64,000 nucleotides of DNA from Persicimonas caeni. Its GTDB lineage: Bacteria > Myxococcota_A > Bradymonadia > Bradymonadales > Bradymonadaceae. Both the position numbers and the translations under genes were made by a program. Where the stretch lies: assembly GCF_006517175.1 (NCBI RefSeq), contig NZ_CP041186.1:2321001-2385000 (forward strand), in the 5' to 3' direction. Shown piece after piece: positions 45,713 to 55,135 of the stretch. How positions within the stretch are numbered: the first letter of the stretch is position 1; each line of letters starts with the position of its first letter. A model generated the notes under the pieces. The model was given only the letters and a program-made list of their open reading frames with translations, did not search any database and was not told the DNA's origin.

Positions 45713-46123
45713 ATGGAAGCAGTCATGAGTAACGATCGTCGTCGTCGTCGCAGCGAGAAGACCCACGAAGCGGTGTACTACCAGCTCGACCACGTCCGTC
45801 AGAAGCACGGGCTGGGTTTCCTGGTCCTGGCCAACGACGAAGGCGTCTTCGTCGCCGGCGCCGGCGAGAAGGACCGCGACGAGGTCTTCGCGGCCTATGC
45901 TGCCGAGATGGCGCAAGCCGACTCCGCCTACCGCCAGAAGCTCGAAGCCGAACTGCACGAGTACCTCTTCGGCCCCGACGCCGACACGGTCGTCGACGTA
46001 CGCAGCTTCAAGATCGATGATATGCCGATGTACCTGTGCGCCGCGGGCGCTGCGTCGAGCAGCTCCGACGACGCGCTCGAGCACACCATCAACGGCGTGC
46101 AGCGGATCTTCCGCACCACCTGA
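45713..46123 (+). CDS. Small cytoplasmic protein, possibly roadblock/LC7-like
   Basis: 136 aa with a clear GGAGAGG site 5 bases before the ATG. After a basic start (SNDRRRRRSEK) comes YYQLDHVRQKHGLGFLVLANDEGVFVAG followed by a helix DEVFAAYAAEMA. It ends with strand YLCAAG and helix ALEHTINGVQRIF. The order helix, two strands with a D/N-x-x-G turn, helix, strand resembles roadblock/LC7 folds such as MglB, but similarity is only visual. It is monocistronic with a good terminator at 46182-46213. It sits beside the GYF/zinc-ribbon genes, the type that meets MglA/MglB in Myxococcus (context only). Confidence 0.65.
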   Translation: MEAVMSNDRRRRRSEKTHEAVYYQLDHVRQKHGLGFLVLANDEGVFVAGAGEKDRDEVFAAYAAEMAQADSAYRQKLEAELHEYLFGPDADTVVDVRSFKIDDMPMYLCAAGAASSSSDDALEHTINGVQRIFRTT

Positions 46124-46181: not shown

Positions 46182-46213
46182 AGGCGCTGGGGCTACTGTC
46201 CCAGCGCCTTTTT
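46182..46213 (+). terminator. Intrinsic terminator after the small gene
   Basis: AGGCGCTGGG and CCCAGCGCCT (46182-46191, 46200-46209) pair across 8 bases and end in TTTTT. The hairpin overlaps the last codons of the convergent zinc-ribbon gene. Confidence 0.85.
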
Positions 46214-47722
46214 GAGTTTGTCGGCTTGGTAGCTGGCGATGGAAGCCTTCGAACCGCCCGGAAAGCGGCTCAGGTAGTTCTGGTAGGCGTCGAGCGCAGC
46301 CTGGTGATTCCCCTGCTCGCGCTCGGCCTTGCCCAGCCCGATATAGGCGTCGCCGTAGCTGGGGTTGTAGTTGAGGGCCTTGCGAAATTGGGCGCTGGCG
46401 GCAGCCGGGCTGCCCAGGGCGAGCAGCGACCAACCCAGGCCGGTGATCGCCTCGACGTTGTTGCGCTCCTCTTCGAGCACCGCGTGAAATTTCTGGCGGG
46501 CTCGGCGCGGATGTCCCGCCTCCAGGTAGCGCTTGGCCTTGGCCAACAACTCCTCGGCGTCGGGCTCTTCGGCAGCCTTGACCGCCGCCTCGATCGCCAC
46601 GGCGACGCTCTCTTCGAGCTTGGGACCTGCGGCCGCGATCCCGGCGGCGAGGTGCTTGGCGTTCTCCTTCTGCGCGCTGTCCAGCGCGTTGGCCACGGCC
46701 CCGTCGATGCGCTCGCGCGGAGACGCCTCTTTCTTTTCGGGCTCGCGCTCCTCGTCGGCCTGCTCGGCCTCGGCGATGTCGACGACCTCGGACTCGGCCT
46801 GCGTCGGCAGGTATTCGTCGATCAAGTCGGGGCGAGCGAAATAAACGGCGGCACCTCCGCCAGCCACCACGAGCAGCATCACCGCGACCACGATGGGCCA
46901 ACGACTCTTTTGAGGCTCGTAGTCGACCGCGTCATGGCGCCCCGTACCTTCGAGTTCACCGAGAGACGAGCCTTCACCAAAGCTCCACTCGTCGTCCTCT
47001 TCGAGGTCGTCGCTCGCCGAGCCGAACGCGCCGGTCTGCAGGCGTACCTGTGGCTGAGGAGCGCTTGGCTGCGGGGCGCTCGGCTGCGGGGCACGCGGTT
47101 GCTGGGGAGCAGCCTGCGCGGTGGCCTCACCCGAGGCGTTCCGCTGGGGTGCGGGGGTCTGTGAGCGAGGCGGATCGGTCGGGCTTGGTGACGGCTCGGA
47201 GCGCGAAGGTTGGGAGCGTTCCGGGCCCGCAGGCCCGCCCTCGGCGCCGCGTTTGGGCGCCTCGAGTCCGAACTGCTGGGAAGTCTTGACCTTGGAGCGA
47301 AAATCCGGCTCGGACGCAGGCTCGGGAGCGCTCGGCAGTTGCTGCTCGGCGCCACGCCGTTCGGCTGCGTGCGAGGCGCTGATGCTCGAGATGCTCTCGA
47401 CGGCCTGAAAAATCGGCATGAACTCGCCGATGTCGGCCAGGCGCTTCCACTTTTTGCCGGTGCGCGAGACCTGGTCGGCCTTGGTGACCTTGCCCTGCAA
47501 GATCCACTGGTGCAGCTCGTCGAAGCTCGAAAAGTAGAGGATATCGCCGCTGGTCGTGTTCTTGACCATCCAGCGGCGCTGGTTTTCCTGGCTCAACGCT
47601 GCGTGGGTCTGCAGCCGAAAGACATGCTCGCACTGACTGCACTTGAGCGTCGCGGCGCCGCCACGAAGCTGACGTGCGTCGATCTCGTACAGCGTGTCAC
47701 ACTGTGGACAGCGAACGTCCAT
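46193..47722 (-). CDS. Zinc-ribbon/GYF-like/TM/TPR membrane protein (AgmX/GltJ-like cytoplasmic part)
   Basis: 509 aa from the ATG at 47722. Residues 1-37 are an MJ0042-type zinc ribbon (CPQC...CSQC). A GYF_2-like domain follows directly (about 50-110; RRWMVKNTTSGDILYFSSFDELHQWI). A long Pro/Ser/Gln-rich disordered region comes next. One membrane helix (WPIVVAVMLLVVAGGGAAVYF) leads to a predicted periplasmic C-terminal part with TPR helices (AEELLAKAKRYLEAGHPRRA and SYGDAYIGLGKAEREQG). Myxococcus GltJ/AgmX has the same zinc ribbon, GYF and TM order. It is the downstream member of a tandem pair. Confidence 0.86.
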   Translation of the reverse strand: MDVRCPQCDTLYEIDARQLRGGAATLKCSQCEHVFRLQTHAALSQENQRRWMVKNTTSGDILYFSSFDELHQWILQGKVTKADQVSRTGKKWKRLADIGEFMPIFQAVESISSISASHAAERRGAEQQLPSAPEPASEPDFRSKVKTSQQFGLEAPKRGAEGGPAGPERSQPSRSEPSPSPTDPPRSQTPAPQRNASGEATAQAAPQQPRAPQPSAPQPSAPQPQVRLQTGAFGSASDDLEEDDEWSFGEGSSLGELEGTGRHDAVDYEPQKSRWPIVVAVMLLVVAGGGAAVYFARPDLIDEYLPTQAESEVVDIAEAEQADEEREPEKKEASPRERIDGAVANALDSAQKENAKHLAAGIAAAGPKLEESVAVAIEAAVKAAEEPDAEELLAKAKRYLEAGHPRRARQKFHAVLEEERNNVEAITGLGWSLLALGSPAAASAQFRKALNYNPSYGDAYIGLGKAEREQGNHQAALDAYQNYLSRFPGGSKASIASYQADKLKKALGQ

Positions 47723-47797
47723 GGTAGGTGTTTCCAATGGGGGCCCGGAGCGGCCCAGCCCGGCGCGGCGGGGCGGCCGGATGAGTCAATACGGCCG

Positions 47798-49384
47798 CTA
47801 CTCGTTACTGGCGGCTTCGCCAGCTTCATCGCCCGGATCTTCGGAGGCCGTCAACTCGGCGACTTTCTTCTTGGCCGCCTCGGCTTCTTTGTCCTGGCCC
47901 ATTTCCGCGTACACCTCGGCGAGCATCTCGTAGATCTCGACGCGCTCGGGAGTGAGCAACTTGGCGTTTTGCAGCTTCTCGGCGGCCGTCTGCAGTCGGT
48001 TGTTCTTGACGGCGCGCTCGGCATCGTCGATGAGCCGGTTGACCTCTTTGACCAGCTTGGGATTGGGGCCGCTCTCCTCCTGGGCGACCTCCTCTTGCTG
48101 GGCCTCGTTTGCCGGCGCAGCTTGCTCCTGGGGAGCCGGCTTCTGGGCCTGCTCTTCGGGCTGAGTCGACTTCATCCCCAGCACTTCGCCCTTGATGTCG
48201 TAGATGCCGAACATCTGGACGCTGAGGCCGCCGGCGACAAGGAGCAGCACCAACACCACGCCCCACAAGAGCACGTTCCATTTACCGTCACGCGACGGCG
48301 GACGGTACTCCTTGGGCTTGATCTTTTTGCCGGGCGGCTCCGACGAGGGCGACGGCACAGGCGCCGACGGCGCCGGAGTCTGGCTCGCCAGCGAGTTGCC
48401 GGGCATGCCCGCGGCGCCGGCGCCCGGGCCACTGGGCGGCTGCTGCGGCGCCGGCGACGGGTTGTTTTGCTGGAACGAAGGCGGCTGCTGCGGGCCACTC
48501 TGGGCCGGGCCGCTCGAAATCTGCGGCCAAGCGCTGAGCGCGTGGAACGTGTCGCCGTCGCCCGAAAGCTCGTAACCGTCGAGGTCTTCTCGGTTCGACA
48601 GCCAGTTTTTGAGGCTCTTGGTGTCGGGAAACTCGTAGGTCAGCCCGAAGTTGGTCTTGAGCTTCCACGGCCCGTCGTGGTCGGCGTTCGGACCGGAAGG
48701 CCCGTCGGCTGCTTCGAACGGAGCGGCTTGGCCGCCTGCGTCTCGTTGGCTCTGCTGTTGACTCTGCTGCTGGCTCGGCTGTTGCGCCGGCTGGCTGGGC
48801 TGAGCAGGAGCGGGCTGCTGATTCTGTTGGGGCTGCGGTTGCGACGGCGCCTGCGGCGCGTCGGCGGGTTCGAACGGAGGCTTGGACTCGGCCGACGAAT
48901 CGTTGAAGCCGAAGTTGTCGAGCATGTCACCGGAGACGACCTCGGTGGGCGCCCCCTCGTCCATCGACGAGCCTTGGTGGCCACCGGCGTTGCCCTGCCC
49001 CATGCCCGGAAGACCGCCGTCCTCGAAGGGATTCTTCATCTCGACGGTGCCGTCGTCCGGCGCGTCGGCGCCGTTGAGAAAGTCGGGGATCGAATCGCCC
49101 GACATCACCTCGGTGGCGGCCACGCCGTCGTCTGCACCACCTTGCGGCGCGCCTCCACCCTGCTGCATCTGGTTGACCAGCTTGTTCAGATCGGGGCGGA
49201 AGGCGACCGAGGTCTTGTCCTCGAGGTCGTCGGAGGCAGGCGCGCTCGGAGCCGGGTTCTGCTCCTCGGGATAGACGATGAACTTATGCTGACATGACGG
49301 GCAGGTGATCTTACCTCCCGATGCCGGCACATTGGCATCGTTGACGCGGTACCGAGATGCACAACTGGGACACTGGACAATCAT
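47798..49384 (-). CDS. Zinc-ribbon/GYF-like/TM/TPR membrane protein, paralogue of the previous
   Basis: 528 aa. Residues 1-36 are an MJ0042 zinc ribbon (CPSC...CPSC). A long Gln/Pro-rich disordered segment (about 40-235) precedes a GYF-like domain (GPWKLKTNFGLTYEFPDTKSL). One helix follows (WNVLLWGVVLVLLLVAGGLSV), then a TPR-type C-terminus (AERAVKNNRLQTAAEKLQNAK). Order thus differs from the neighbour, where GYF sits next to the zinc ribbon. Predicted topology is N-in, C-periplasmic. The gap to the downstream paralogue is 75 bp, so they are likely cotranscribed, this gene first. Confidence 0.86.
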   Translation of the reverse strand: MIVQCPSCASRYRVNDANVPASGGKITCPSCQHKFIVYPEEQNPAPSAPASDDLEDKTSVAFRPDLNKLVNQMQQGGGAPQGGADDGVAATEVMSGDSIPDFLNGADAPDDGTVEMKNPFEDGGLPGMGQGNAGGHQGSSMDEGAPTEVVSGDMLDNFGFNDSSAESKPPFEPADAPQAPSQPQPQQNQQPAPAQPSQPAQQPSQQQSQQQSQRDAGGQAAPFEAADGPSGPNADHDGPWKLKTNFGLTYEFPDTKSLKNWLSNREDLDGYELSGDGDTFHALSAWPQISSGPAQSGPQQPPSFQQNNPSPAPQQPPSGPGAGAAGMPGNSLASQTPAPSAPVPSPSSEPPGKKIKPKEYRPPSRDGKWNVLLWGVVLVLLLVAGGLSVQMFGIYDIKGEVLGMKSTQPEEQAQKPAPQEQAAPANEAQQEEVAQEESGPNPKLVKEVNRLIDDAERAVKNNRLQTAAEKLQNAKLLTPERVEIYEMLAEVYAEMGQDKEAEAAKKKVAELTASEDPGDEAGEAASNE

Positions 49385-50369: not shown

Positions 50370-50744
50370 TCAGCCAGCGAGCTGCTGGACGAGAGTAGCG
50401 GCGTCGATCTGGTTCGTGATCAGGATCGTGATAACGAACGCGTAGATGACGAGCGACTCGATAAGAGCCAGACCGAGAATCAGCGGGGTGAGAAGCTTAC
50501 CGCTGGCGCCCGGGTTGCGAGCGATGCCCTCGAGGGCAGCCGCAGCAGCGCGGCCCTGGCCGAGCGCGCCACCGATGGCAGCCAGGCCGATGCCGAAGCC
50601 GGCAGCAACCGCCATCCAGGAGAACATGGTGAAGATGTTGTCGCCAGCGGCAACTGCAGCGTTCTGAGCGAAGGCCGAGGTGCTCCACAGAGCGATGACA
50701 CCGAAGGTGCTAAGAAAAGCGATGACTTTGTTTTTGGACAGCAT
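50370..50744 (-). CDS. atpE: ATP synthase F0 subunit c
   Basis: 124 aa, longer than a usual subunit c (about 80) because of an N-terminal signal-like extension (MLSKNKVIAFLSTFGVIALWSTSAFAQ). The hairpin follows: helix 1 with GGALGQGRAAAA, loop ARNPGA, helix 2 with the ion-carrying Glu in LALIESLVIYAFV. The Gln and Glu-Ser of ion-binding rings are present, but the Thr typical of Na+ rings is Leu, so proton coupling is more likely (inference). A strong site (GGAGGA) precedes the start. Confidence 0.95.
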   Translation of the reverse strand: MLSKNKVIAFLSTFGVIALWSTSAFAQNAAVAAGDNIFTMFSWMAVAAGFGIGLAAIGGALGQGRAAAAALEGIARNPGASGKLLTPLILGLALIESLVIYAFVITILITNQIDAATLVQQLAG

Positions 50745-50880
50745 AGACGAATCCTCCTAACTCCAGCGCTTGCTATATTTGATTCGCGGCCTCATGCCGC
50801 CTGCGCCGTTGGTTGGTATGGTGAACGGTCCACGTAATTATGGGCGACGACCTTTCAGCAAAGTTATGTCGCCCCGCTTC

Positions 50881-51663
50881 TTAATGCCCTTCGTGCGATA
50901 CTGCAAGGGAGATGTAGATCGACGAGAGCAGGCAAAAGACAAGGGTCTGAATAATCGAAACTAGTAGACCCAGGAACAAAAAGGGTACGGGAAGCAAAGC
51001 CGGGACTTGCACAAGCCCGGCGGCCAAGTCGCCGAACACCCCGAGCACCATGTGGTCACCGGTCATATTACCGGTAAGACGCACAGCGAGGCTGATGGGG
51101 CGGAAGGCGTGGCCGATGAGCTCGATGACGAGCATCAGCGGCGCGATAAACCAAATGGGGCCCAGGAAATGCTTGAGATAACCCATGCCGTGCTCGCGCA
51201 GGCCGGCCACGTTATAGACCACGAAGACGACCGCCGAGCAGGCGAGGTTGGTGTTCAAGTTCTGGGTCGGCGGCAAAAAGCCGGGGATCAAGCCCAACAG
51301 GTTGCTCAGGAGGATGAACACCGCCAACGCGCCGATGAGCGGGAAGAACTTTTTGGCGTTCTCCTTGCCCATCATCTCGGTCATCAACCCGAGGGTCGCG
51401 TCGAAGATCACCTCGAAGAAGTTACGTACGGTCAACTTCCCGTCGGGGATCATCGCCTCTTCTTTGCTGGCGTATTTACGCCGGGCGATCAATCCCAAGA
51501 TGACGATGAGCACCGTGACGACGCCCGCCATGACCACGTGATTGATCGTGACGGTGCCGGTGGCGTTCAAAAGCGGATTGCCGAAGATCTCGTTGAAACC
51601 CTCGCCGTGATTGCGCTCGGCGATTCCGGGGGCCACTAGATCGAGAAAAGTGTAGTCTGCCAT
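50881..51663 (-). CDS. atpB: ATP synthase F0 subunit a
   Basis: 260 aa membrane stator subunit forming the proton half-channels. The essential Arg is in SLAVRLTGNM, and the family signature LNTNLACSAVVFVVYN precedes it. Helices fit a six-helix topology. It lies 4 bp after the subunit-I-like gene and 136 bp before atpE on the minus strand. Confidence 0.96.
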   Translation of the reverse strand: MADYTFLDLVAPGIAERNHGEGFNEIFGNPLLNATGTVTINHVVMAGVVTVLIVILGLIARRKYASKEEAMIPDGKLTVRNFFEVIFDATLGLMTEMMGKENAKKFFPLIGALAVFILLSNLLGLIPGFLPPTQNLNTNLACSAVVFVVYNVAGLREHGMGYLKHFLGPIWFIAPLMLVIELIGHAFRPISLAVRLTGNMTGDHMVLGVFGDLAAGLVQVPALLPVPFLFLGLLVSIIQTLVFCLLSSIYISLAVSHEGH

Positions 51664-51667
51664 CGGT

Positions 51668-52081
51668 TTACAAACTCTCGGTGTCGCCGTCCTCTACAAG
51701 GTCGTCTTCGCGGCCCATGTACAGGGCCAACTGCCAGACGATAGCCAAGAGGAACGTGCTGTACCCAATGATATAGCCGAAGACGTTGGCGCCGACGATG
51801 ATCACGAAGACGAACGTCAGCACGAACAAGACAAACAGCTTGATGACCAACAACAGGGACCAAAAGGCGGAGCTGGTACTGCCCTGCGCCCCGGCCTGCA
51901 GTATCTTGCGGCTGATCCAAGAGACCACCCGCAGGTTAAACGCTCCCACCAACACGCCCAGGCCCACCGAGCCGGCAAAATGCACCGACATGACCCACCA
52001 GCCGATCAGCGCCGACACGGCGCCGATGATGAGGGTCTTCCAGAAGAGCCCGTCGACAAATTTGGTCTCGAGCGAGGTCAT
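51668..52081 (-). CDS. ATP synthase subunit I-like membrane protein
   Basis: 137 aa from the ATG at 52081 (MTSLETKFVDGLFWK); an open frame to 52141 overlaps atpZ and is unlikely. Four hydrophobic helices are visible, with LVGAFNLRVVSWISRKILQ between the second and third. It lies between atpZ and atpB with gaps of 10 and 4 bp. Position and size match the AtpI-type assembly factor, although sequence identity to AtpI is not obvious. Confidence 0.8.
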   Translation of the reverse strand: MTSLETKFVDGLFWKTLIIGAVSALIGWWVMSVHFAGSVGLGVLVGAFNLRVVSWISRKILQAGAQGSTSSAFWSLLLVIKLFVLFVLTFVFVIIVGANVFGYIIGYSTFLLAIVWQLALYMGREDDLVEDGDTESL

Positions 52082-52091
52082 GATGAAGCTG

Positions 52092-52364
52092 TCACTCCAA
52101 AAAACGTTTGGCCACGCGATAGATGTGCCACAGCACACCAACCAGTCCCAAGAGCACCATGACGATGACGCCCCAAGGGTGAGTGCCGAACTGGCCGTCG
52201 ATCAGCGCACCGACGATATAGCCGCCGATGATGAACCCGACAAATTCGAACCCGAGGGCGCCAAAGACCCCGGCGACTAACCAGGGAGAGCGCTCTTCGG
52301 TGGGCTGCTCATCGGCGTCTGACGAAGCCGGTCTCTTAGGCACTTTGCTCTTCGAGTCCGTCAT
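52092..52364 (-). CDS. atpZ: AtpZ/AtpI-type F0 assembly protein
   Basis: 90 aa from the ATG at 52364, which has AAGGAG 8 bases upstream. A hydrophilic N-terminus leads into two helices (WLVAGVFGALGFEFVGFIIGGYIVGALID and PWGVIVMVLLGLVGVLWHIYRVAK). The short GQFGTHPWG turn is typical of AtpZ/AtpI. First gene of the atpZ-I-atpB-atpE set, read toward lower coordinates. F1 genes are not in the window. Confidence 0.85.
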   Translation of the reverse strand: MTDSKSKVPKRPASSDADEQPTEERSPWLVAGVFGALGFEFVGFIIGGYIVGALIDGQFGTHPWGVIVMVLLGLVGVLWHIYRVAKRFLE

Positions 52365-52494
52365 CAAGTCAGCTCCTTGCGAGCGGCCCGCCTCAGCCGG
52401 CTTGCACCCCGTTTTTTGGGGCGCCGGCCACGCGGCGGCGATTGACTAACACAGGGGTAGGTGTGCGTCAACTGGGTAGTTAGACGCTTCTTTC

Positions 52495-52533
52495 ACAAAC
52501 AAAAACACCCGGCTCGTCAAAGCGAACCGGGCG
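52495..52533 (-). terminator. Intrinsic terminator after gyrA
   Basis: On the minus strand, CGCCCGGTTCG, a small loop and CGAGCCGGGTG are followed by a TTTTTGTTTG tract, between the gyrA stop and atpZ. Confidence 0.85.
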
Positions 52534-52558
52534 TTGTTGTAAGGCTGTGAGGCGAAGC

Positions 52559-55135
52559 TTATTCCTCTTCACCTTCATCGAGTTCGTCCTGCAGGTCTTC
52601 GGCGATGGACGACTCCTCGCCCGCCTCACCGGCGGCCTCTTCGGCGTCAATCTCGGCGCCCTCGACGCCCTCGACGCCCTCTTCGTCTTCCTCGTCGTCG
52701 GTCTCGGCCAAGCGAGCCATGCTGACGACCTTTTCGCTGTCGTCCGTGACCATGACTTTGACGCCCTGGGTATTACGCCCGTAGGTCGAGATCTCGCCGA
52801 CGCGGGTGCGCAGGATCTGGCCCTGGTCGGTGATGAGCATCAGCTGGTCGTCGTTGTGCACCAGCCGGGTGCCAACCAGGCGGCCGTTGCGATCGTTGAC
52901 CTTCATCGTGATGACGCCCTTGCCGCCTCGCGACTGCTGGGGGTACTCGTCGATGATGGTGCGCTTGCCGTAGCCGTTTTCGGTGATCGTGAGGATCGTC
53001 AGATCTTCGTCACGCTCGGTGGGCAACACCTCCATGCCCACCAGCTCGTCTTCACCCTTGAAGCGCATGCCGATGACGCCGGTGGCCGTGCGGCCCATGG
53101 GGCGCGCGTCGGACTCGTGGAAGCGAATCGACTGGCCGTTCTTGCTGACCATGAAGATGTCGTCATCGCCCTCGGAGAGGCGCACCGAGACGAGCTCGTC
53201 GCCCTCTTTGATGTTGAGCGCGATGATGCCGCCCGAGTGCACGTTCTGGTAGGCGATCAGCTCGGTCTTCTTGATGATGCCGTTGCGGGTGGCGAAGACG
53301 ACGAATTTGTCCTCGTAGAAATCGTCCGAGGCCAAAATGGTCTGGACCGTCTCGTCTTCCTCGAGGGGCAGCAGGTTAGCCACGTGGCTTCCCTTGGTGG
53401 TGCGCGAGCCCAGAGGCAGCTCGTGGGTGCGCAGCATGTACAGCTTTCCGATCGAGGTGAAGATCAAGATATTCGTGTGCGTCGAGGCCACGAACATATC
53501 GGTGACGAAATCCTCGTCCTTGGTCCCCATGCCGCGCTTGCCGCGGCCACCGCGACGCTGGGCGCGATACTCGTCCAGCGGGGTACGCTTGGCGTAGCCC
53601 TGGTGGCTCAAGGTGACGACCATGTCTTCTTCGGCGATGAGATCTTCGAGCGACAGCTCGCTGACGTCGTACAAGATCTCGGTGCGACGCTCGTCGCCGT
53701 ACGACTCTTTGACCTCGACGAGCTCGTCCTTGATGACACCCATCATCTTCTGCTCGTCGGCCAGAAGGCTTCGCAGATATTCGATGGTGGCGCGCACCTC
53801 GGCCAACTCTTCCAAGATCTTTTCGCGCTCGAGGCCGGTCAGCTTCTGCAGGCGCATGCGCAGGATGGCGTCGGCCTGACGCTCGCTGAGCTCGAAGCGC
53901 TCCATGAGGCCGGCCTGCGCCTCCGACGGCGAGTCGCTGGCGCGGATCAGCGCGATGACCTCGTCGAGGTAATCGAGCGCGATCTTGAGACCTTCGAGGA
54001 TGTGGGCGCGATCTTCGGCCTTGTTCAGCTCGTAGATCGTGCGGCGGGTGACCACGTCACGACGGAAGTCGATGAAGTGGTTGAGCACCTCTTTGAGGCT
54101 CATCACCTGGGGCTGACCGTTGACAATCGCCAGCATGATAATGCCGAACGACGACTGCATCTGGGTCATCTTGTACAGGTTGTTCAACGTGATCTCGGGC
54201 ATCACGTCGCGGCGAAGCTCGATGACGATGCGCATGCCCTTGCGGTCGGACTCGTCGCGCATGTCGGTGATGCCGTCGATCTTCTTGTCGCGCACCAGCT
54301 GGGCGATCTTCTCGATGAGGCGCGCCTTGTTGACCTGGTAGGGCAGCTCGGTGACGATCAGGCTCGACTTGCCCGACTTCTCGTTGTGCTCGATCTCGAC
54401 CCGAGCGCGCATGCGGATGACGCCGCGGCCGGTCGAGTAGGCCTCTTGGATGCCCTTGGCGCCGTAGATCATCCCTGCGGTCGGGAAGTCCGGGCCGGGC
54501 ACGATCTCCATGAGATCGCCCACCGTCATGTCCGGGTTCTCGATGAGGGCGACGGTCGCCTCGATGACCTCGGCCAAGTTGTGCGGCGGGATATTGGTCG
54601 ACATACCGACCGCGATACCCGACGAGCCGTTGACCAGCAGGTTGGGCACCTTGGCGGGCAGGACCGACGGCTCTTTTTCGTTGCCGTCGTAGTTGGGCAC
54701 CCAGTCGATGGTGTCCTTGTCGATGTCCGCCAGGAGCTCTTCGGTCACCCGGTTCATGCGAACTTCGGTATAACGCATCGCCGCGGCCGGGTCGCCGTCG
54801 ACCGAGCCGAAGTTGCCCTGGCCGTCGACCAGGGGCACGCGCATGTTGAAGTCCTGGGCCATGCGCACCAGGGCGTCGTAGACCGCCGAGTCACCGTGGG
54901 GGTGGTATTTACCGATGACGTCGCCGACGACACGCGCCGACTTTTTGTAGGCCGCGTTCCAGCGGTTTCCCAGCTCGTGCTGGCTGTACAAAATACGCCG
55001 GTGGACCGGCTTGAGGCCGTCGCGGACATCCGGCAGGGCACGCCCGATGATGACGCTCATCGCGTAATCGAGGTACGAATGACGAATCTCGTCCTCGATA
55101 TTTACGGGAATGACGTTTGCCGACTCATCTGCCAT
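52559..55135 (-). CDS. gyrA: DNA gyrase subunit A
   Basis: 858 aa. It breaks and reseals DNA through Tyr in [11 protein letters not shown]. The quinolone-determining region reads [17 protein letters not shown], with wild-type Ser and Asp at the usual resistance positions. The GyrA box [11 protein letters not shown] shows it is gyrase rather than ParC, and the six-bladed C-terminal pinwheel follows. An acidic tail of about 50 residues ([14 protein letters not shown]) ends the protein. GAGGAGAG precedes the start. gyrB is not in the window. Confidence 0.98.

Follow-up and report, generated by a model that had tools for sequence, protein, structure and literature searches.

Two adjacent minus-strand genes of Persicimonas caeni, here called B and A, encode proteins that each combine an N-terminal zinc ribbon, a GYF or GYF-like domain, a single transmembrane (TM) segment and a C-terminal tetratricopeptide repeat (TPR) region. 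They lie in the 64,000-nucleotide (nt) stretch analysed here (the window, G000:C1:2321001-2385000), within a single-contig genome of 8,047,206 bp. On balance, B and A are probably ancient paralogs in tandem, both of them bitopic inner-membrane adaptors, which together would form a cytosol-to-envelope scaffold, separate from the gliding protein GltJ, widespread in the phylum and independent of the GTPase MglA. An earlier interpretation made from the letters of the window (the sequence-only reading) had described two neighbouring genes of this domain composition, and the domain and fold evidence confirmed this description, with the TPR region of B being weak. P. caeni belongs to the order Bradymonadales and is described in PMC7188933 as a flagellated, gliding predator. 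The features of the pair were as follows.

47798-49384, minus strand: gene B, first of the pair, 528 amino acids (aa); zinc ribbon, long linker, probable GYF domain, proline-rich stretch, TM segment, weak TPR region
49277-49384, minus strand: zinc ribbon of B, residues 1-36 (Pfam Zn_ribbon_4, E=3.6e-14)
48515-48673, minus strand: GYF-like domain of B, residues ~238-290 (conserved block in alignments A2 and A4; AlphaFold2 blocks with predicted local distance difference test, pLDDT, of 90-94; Foldseek)
48218-48274, minus strand: predicted TM segment of B, residues 371-389 (hydropathy and flanking charges)
47849-48046, minus strand: weak TPR region of B, residues ~447-512 (TPR_19, E=0.0049; hhalign to the A TPR, prob 96%)
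46193-47722, minus strand: gene A, 509 aa; zinc ribbon, GYF domain, proline-rich linker, TM segment, TPR region
47615-47722, minus strand: zinc ribbon of A, residues 1-36 (Pfam Zn_ribbon_4, E=2.4e-12)
47408-47575, minus strand: GYF domain of A as modelled, residues ~50-105 (profile-profile comparison, AlphaFold2 with Foldseek)
46838-46894, minus strand: predicted TM segment of A, residues 277-295 (hydropathy 2.46)
46253-46555, minus strand: TPR region of A, residues ~390-490 (TPR_16, E=2.9e-13)

Gene A begins 75 nt downstream of gene B. Its start was placed at ATG 47722 in preference to TTG 47737, because the aligned orthologs open with M-(D/E)-x-x-C. A profile search detected the zinc ribbon at E<=1 in 20/20 A and 19/19 B orthologs, and the four-cysteine set CxxC...CxxC was unbroken in all of the aligned sequences of both proteins. 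When the A zinc ribbon was used in a profile search of the Protein Data Bank (PDB), the zinc ribbon of GltJ (7zok) was matched at E=0.002. Each protein has a single hydrophobic segment, and lysine and arginine were richer on its N-terminal side in 17/20 A and 15/19 B orthologs; this charge bias suggests a cytosolic N-terminus and a periplasmic C-terminus for both proteins. A clear TPR region was present in all 20 A orthologs.

Evidence for the GYF domains came from profile and structure comparisons. Pfam GYF_2 matched A at E=0.075 only, below the Pfam cut-off, and did not match B. In profile-profile alignments (hhalign), controlled with 20 column shuffles, the A domain scored 20.3 against the GYF domain of GltJ-like proteins (shuffle maximum 15.5; probability 18%) and 24.9 against the B domain (shuffle maximum 17.8; probability 50%), while the B domain against the GltJ-like GYF gave nothing. 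An AlphaFold2 model of A residues 1-120 had a pLDDT of 79, and the PDB structures returned for it by Foldseek included the GYF domain of GltJ (7z3c, prob 0.99, E 0.1) as well as GIGYF2 (7rup, prob 0.98) and the zinc finger of ZitP (2nb9, prob 0.99), both at E 0.1-0.2. The B domain matched 7rup (prob 0.94) together with 1wh2, 7ruq and 3fma, at E 0.17-0.5. Judged by these models, the A region is a GYF domain and the B region is probably one. The GYF fold on which the sequence-only reading depended is thus supported in A, chiefly by the GltJ match, though with its E of 0.1, and more weakly in B. That reading had also stated that the domain is placed differently in the pair, and the spacing after the ribbon agrees: 9-18 residues in the 20 A orthologs vs 62-301 in the 19 B orthologs.

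The pair is conserved in the order and beyond it. A matched at E<=0.001 in all 26 genomes of the order, strongly in 25 of them (the matches in G018 were of TPR or ribbon type only), and B matched in 24. In the 19 pairs measured, B precedes A in the same orientation, with 0-111 nt between the two genes. The gene order gyrA-atpB-atpE-B-A recurred within the order, with atpB nearby at 12 and gyrA at 10 of 18 loci; this atpB/gyrA context was absent from the long stretches of four f2 genomes (L097, L098, L099 and L102; the fifth f2 genome, G023, was left out). Outside the order, A-like proteins with zinc ribbon, GYF domain, usually one TM segment and a TPR-like C-terminus, as judged by eye and by profile, were found across the phylum. 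A B-like gene was directly upstream of A in 3/20 stretches of a first outside set and in 11/19 usable stretches of a second set, for which all genomes were picked because they have a B match; a twelfth case in the latter, L194, was partly masked. At the 37 outside loci the neighbours, whose names rest on one NCBIfam-tested member each, included glmU-like genes at 11 loci, pcrA-like genes at 11, mtnA-like genes at 8, and glmS-like and rplU-like genes at 5 each, and the arrangement glmU-glmS-pcrA-B-A-mtnA was fullest within the class. Over the phylum, profile A3 matched 255/377 genomes at E<=1e-6 and profile A4 112/377 at E<=1e-4, both counts being upper bounds because other zinc ribbon or GYF proteins can match.

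Alignment of the A and B profiles gave probabilities of 98% for the zinc ribbons and 96% for the TPR regions, and the GYF score exceeded all 20 shuffles. Since A and B are alike in ribbon, GYF and TPR, they look like ancient paralogs derived from an old tandem duplication. Among the literature matches listed, no description of a zinc ribbon-GYF-TPR pair was found.

In bacteria, the zinc ribbon/GYF module is known from GltJ, where it works within the gliding machine. GltJ (AgmX) of Myxococcus xanthus, which belongs to the same phylum, resembles the pair in having an N-terminal zinc ribbon (7zok), a GYF domain (7z3c), a low-complexity linker and a single TM segment. On the other hand, GltJ has an AgmX/PglI (TonB-like) domain at its C-terminus and sits in the glt cluster, whereas A and B end in TPR, sit elsewhere, form a tandem pair and are present also in genomes where MglA was not detected. 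GltJ is named among the effectors of MglA in PMC12288465. The AgmX/PglI C-terminal domain (NF033768) gave no match at E<=1 in either protein of the pair (P0001 and P0002), TPR being found there instead, and with the GltJ model NF033761 P0002 scored 23.3 bits vs the 450 required and P0001 had no match. A better GltJ candidate was found in a glt-like cluster at 5.36 Mb (L083, G000:C1:5358000-5377900), about 3 Mb from the pair at 2.37 Mb. This protein has 688 aa, a zinc ribbon, a GYF_2 domain (E=4e-16) and an AgmX/PglI C-terminus, and reached 156 bits with NF033761, likewise under the 450-bit cut-off. The cluster also holds two OMP_myx_plus barrels (above cut-offs), a 1156-aa TPR protein and genes for GltC-like, GltE-like (lipoprotein) and CglF-like proteins; these three and the GltJ-like gene were all below the curated cut-offs. 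Because the AgmX/PglI C-terminal domain is missing from both proteins and their NF033761 scores are low or nil, and because a separate GltJ-like gene exists, the pair was rejected as GltJ. What survives of the likeness drawn in the sequence-only reading is the same kind of cytosolic module, a zinc ribbon and GYF domain before one TM segment.

None of the 26 genomes of the order passed the NF033761 cut-off, and matches under it occurred also in 4/14 control genomes. At E<=1e-50 the GltJ family was matched in none of 282 phylum genomes, nor in the controls; this search was uninformative. In the same glt-like cluster, L083:16310-17761 (plus strand) encodes a 483-aa protein with no Pfam or NCBIfam match at E<=0.01, and its start resembles a GYF-type segment by eye. 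The genes mglB and mglA are adjacent, as an mglBA operon, at L084:8066-10432 (minus strand), in the order ybaB-recR-mglB-mglA, and the MglA and MglB proteins matched solved structures in a PDB sequence search (E=1e-81 and 3.5e-48, respectively). A check of the genome for mglA and a Glt set away from the pair therefore found MglA, MglB and a glt-like cluster.

MglA was present in 25/26 genomes of the order, the exception (G019) being a fragmented draft, and a search of the whole phylum at E<=1e-20 matched it in 294/377 genomes. Four genomes carry the B-A pair without detectable MglA: a search at E<=0.01 gave no MglA match in G033 and G223, and in G156 and G328 the best matches at this threshold were EF-Tu-type GTPases. 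In G033 and G328 both proteins have the zinc ribbon, a GYF-like match, the TM segment and TPR, and pcrA- and glmU-like genes lie upstream, as in MglA-bearing relatives. Since all four genomes are drafts (estimated 90-97% complete, G328 with 8% contamination), MglA is likely, but not certainly, absent from them. The sequence-only reading had itself held that pairs in lineages without MglA would speak against its proposal, and an obligatory MglA scaffold was given up on the basis of these four drafts. Its wider idea of a polarity or envelope-machine scaffold keeps the GltJ-type cytosolic module and the presence of MglA, MglB and a glt-like cluster in the genome, and loses the obligatory role of MglA. 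Where MglA exists, a link with it is possible.

According to the scaffold we propose, each protein would present a cytosolic zinc ribbon and GYF domain on a flexible tether and cross the membrane once. Cytosolic partners may be recruited through the cytosolic modules and short linker motifs. On the periplasmic side, the TPR region, which is clear in A but weak or lost in B, would hold envelope or periplasmic partners, and A and B may act jointly in joining cytosol to envelope. In the linkers, W[ST][LFIM][GAE] occurred in 15/20 A orthologs (shuffled mean 0.11, maximum 2) and D.T.E[MIV].NP in 13/19 B orthologs (shuffled 0), both motifs having been picked after the alignment was viewed and the orthologs not being independent. 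They are conserved amid otherwise variable linkers, like binding sites in disordered linkers would be. The B linkers also carry an acidic-Thr-x-(V/I/M) motif, with 35 matches in 19 orthologs as compared with 2.9 in shuffled sequences (maximum 8) and a density of 1.72 per 500 aa vs 0.19 in 634 background open reading frames (ORFs).

A number of observations weigh against this scaffold. The top Foldseek row for the A model was a TOC-TIC chain, above the GYF structures, and that for the B domain was an HNH endonuclease, with topoisomerases also among the early rows. The Foldseek E-values of the GYF matches were weak (0.1 or worse), and their VIA Z scores of 5.7 (7z3c) and 5.2 (GIGYF2) for A and about 4 for B, like the 4.5 for 2nb9 and the 6.2 and 6.0 for TOC-TIC and TIC, were below 8, in the range of chance arrangements. 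B is less constant than A: it was not detected in G004 and G005, where A is present; TPR_19 was found in only 9/19 B orthologs at E<=1; and the B orthologs of G006 (L026) and G007 (L096) stop just past the TM segment, without the TPR region. Two of the pairs without detected MglA, in G156 and G223, have a B without TPR and weak ribbons. In the first outside set A was found without detected B in 17/20 stretches (L139 has almost no upstream sequence), and in L133 pcrA adjoins A with no B between. To these must be added the choice of the linker motifs after inspection of the alignment and the dependence among orthologs. The acidic-Thr motif was not enriched in 20 B proteins from outside the order (6/20; shuffled mean 3.06, maximum 7), and as a phylum-wide feature of B it was not upheld in this independent set. 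Eukaryotic GYF adaptors bind proline-rich peptides of the PPG type; PPG was found in the linkers of 7/19 B orthologs vs 9.5 expected and of 3/20 A orthologs vs 5.3. These counts are below expectation, PPG was rejected as a GYF ligand in the linkers, and since it is not enriched, docking between A and B through GYF gains no support here.

The pair might instead be a variant of GltJ that serves as a polarity or gliding scaffold dependent on MglA and MglB, and its cytosolic zinc ribbon and GYF domains would then read the MglA-GTP gradient. Its module is of the same kind as that of GltJ, the GltJ GYF structure was among the first matches of A, MglA and strong A (each in 25/26 genomes) nearly always co-occur within the order, and P. 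caeni is described as gliding. However, the pairs of G033, G156, G223 and G328 occur where MglA matches are of EF-Tu type or none, and in P. caeni the pair lies outside the glt-like cluster and lacks the AgmX/PglI C-terminal domain; we consider this explanation unlikely. We are equally doubtful that the pair serves general envelope growth, that is, peptidoglycan or outer-envelope assembly rather than motility, with the TPRs holding periplasmic assembly factors. This would fit the phylum-wide conservation, the presence of the pair without detected MglA and the nearby genes for UDP-N-acetylglucosamine synthesis outside the order (glmU at 11 loci, glmS at 5). Yet pcrA, mtnA and rplU are neighbours as well, and within Bradymonadales so are gyrA and genes of ATP synthase, which looks more like a housekeeping context than a pathway.

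A phospho-switch appears very improbable; in it, the acidic-Thr-x-(V/I/M) repeats of the B linker would serve as Ser/Thr-kinase sites, and FHA domains that read them would regulate assembly. The motif far exceeds its shuffled frequency in B, and similar motifs lie after the GYF domain of some GltJ-like proteins. Against this, the pattern was chosen after the alignment had been seen and is not enriched in B outside the order. The motif also numbered 15/26 in A outside the order (shuffled mean 6.57, maximum 13), where many of the matches sit in the zinc ribbon itself, and the total of 6 in GltJ-like proteins was within the shuffle range (maximum 8).

The cytosol-to-envelope adaptor that we favour has partial likenesses among other known proteins. 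ZitP of Caulobacter (2nb9) is, like A and B, bitopic with an N-terminal cytosolic zinc ribbon. According to PMC5182063, ZitP requires this ribbon to contact the polarity scaffold PopZ, and it has a periplasmic DUF3426 region. A and B have TPR in place of this region, and a Pfam search at E<=1 gave no DUF3426 match in either protein. ZitP is not known to have a GYF domain. The GYF adaptors GIGYF1/2, SMY2 and CD2BP2 gave fold matches for both GYF regions of the pair, but are eukaryotic. SgmX, a TPR protein of the same phylum, is a TPR effector of MglA that acts with it on type IV pili; the TPRs of A and B are predicted to be periplasmic.

Three further genes lie near the pair in the window.

50370-50744, minus strand: atpE, upstream of B, context only
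50881-51663, minus strand: atpB, upstream of B, context only
45713-46123, plus strand: P0003, 136 aa, convergent with A, roadblock-like at best and not judged part of the system

At 50370-55135 gyrA lies beside atpB, atpE and two small ORFs (51668-52141 and 52092-52367) that have no NCBIfam match, and a gyrA-atpB-atpE arrangement of this kind was seen at 10/18 loci of the order. The sequence-only reading had noted a small, possibly roadblock (MglB-like) protein next to the pair. The ORF is there and its roadblock likeness is only suggestive; it is not part of the locus. P0003 itself did not match Pfam Robl_LC7 at E<=1, and no roadblock structure was found at E<=1 in a PDB profile search. In its family, 2/15 members had a Robl_LC7 match (best 0.005). 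Against MglB, hhalign gave a score of 19.9 (shuffle maximum 14.7) with a probability of only 2.5%. All 26 genomes of the order have one to four matches to the family, but none of its members was found beside the pair at the 17 other loci compared; the sequence available at 16 of these continues for at least 4.4 kb past A. An MglB-like neighbour was rejected as a locus member on its convergent orientation, its absence at these 17 loci and the spread of its family through the order.

The occurrence of the zinc ribbon/GYF module in a widespread pair with another periplasmic end, in some genomes where MglA was not detected, suggests a general cytosol-to-envelope docking device. A bolder and, in our view, unlikely possibility is that B-A is an ancestral envelope scaffold of the Myxococcota, older than MglA polarity or not dependent on it, the zinc ribbon-GYF module of GltJ having been taken from this housekeeping family as the gliding machine evolved. 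With the pair at hand, the origin of the control module of GltJ becomes testable, and two conserved, uncharacterised genes are offered for study in myxobacteria and bradymonads.

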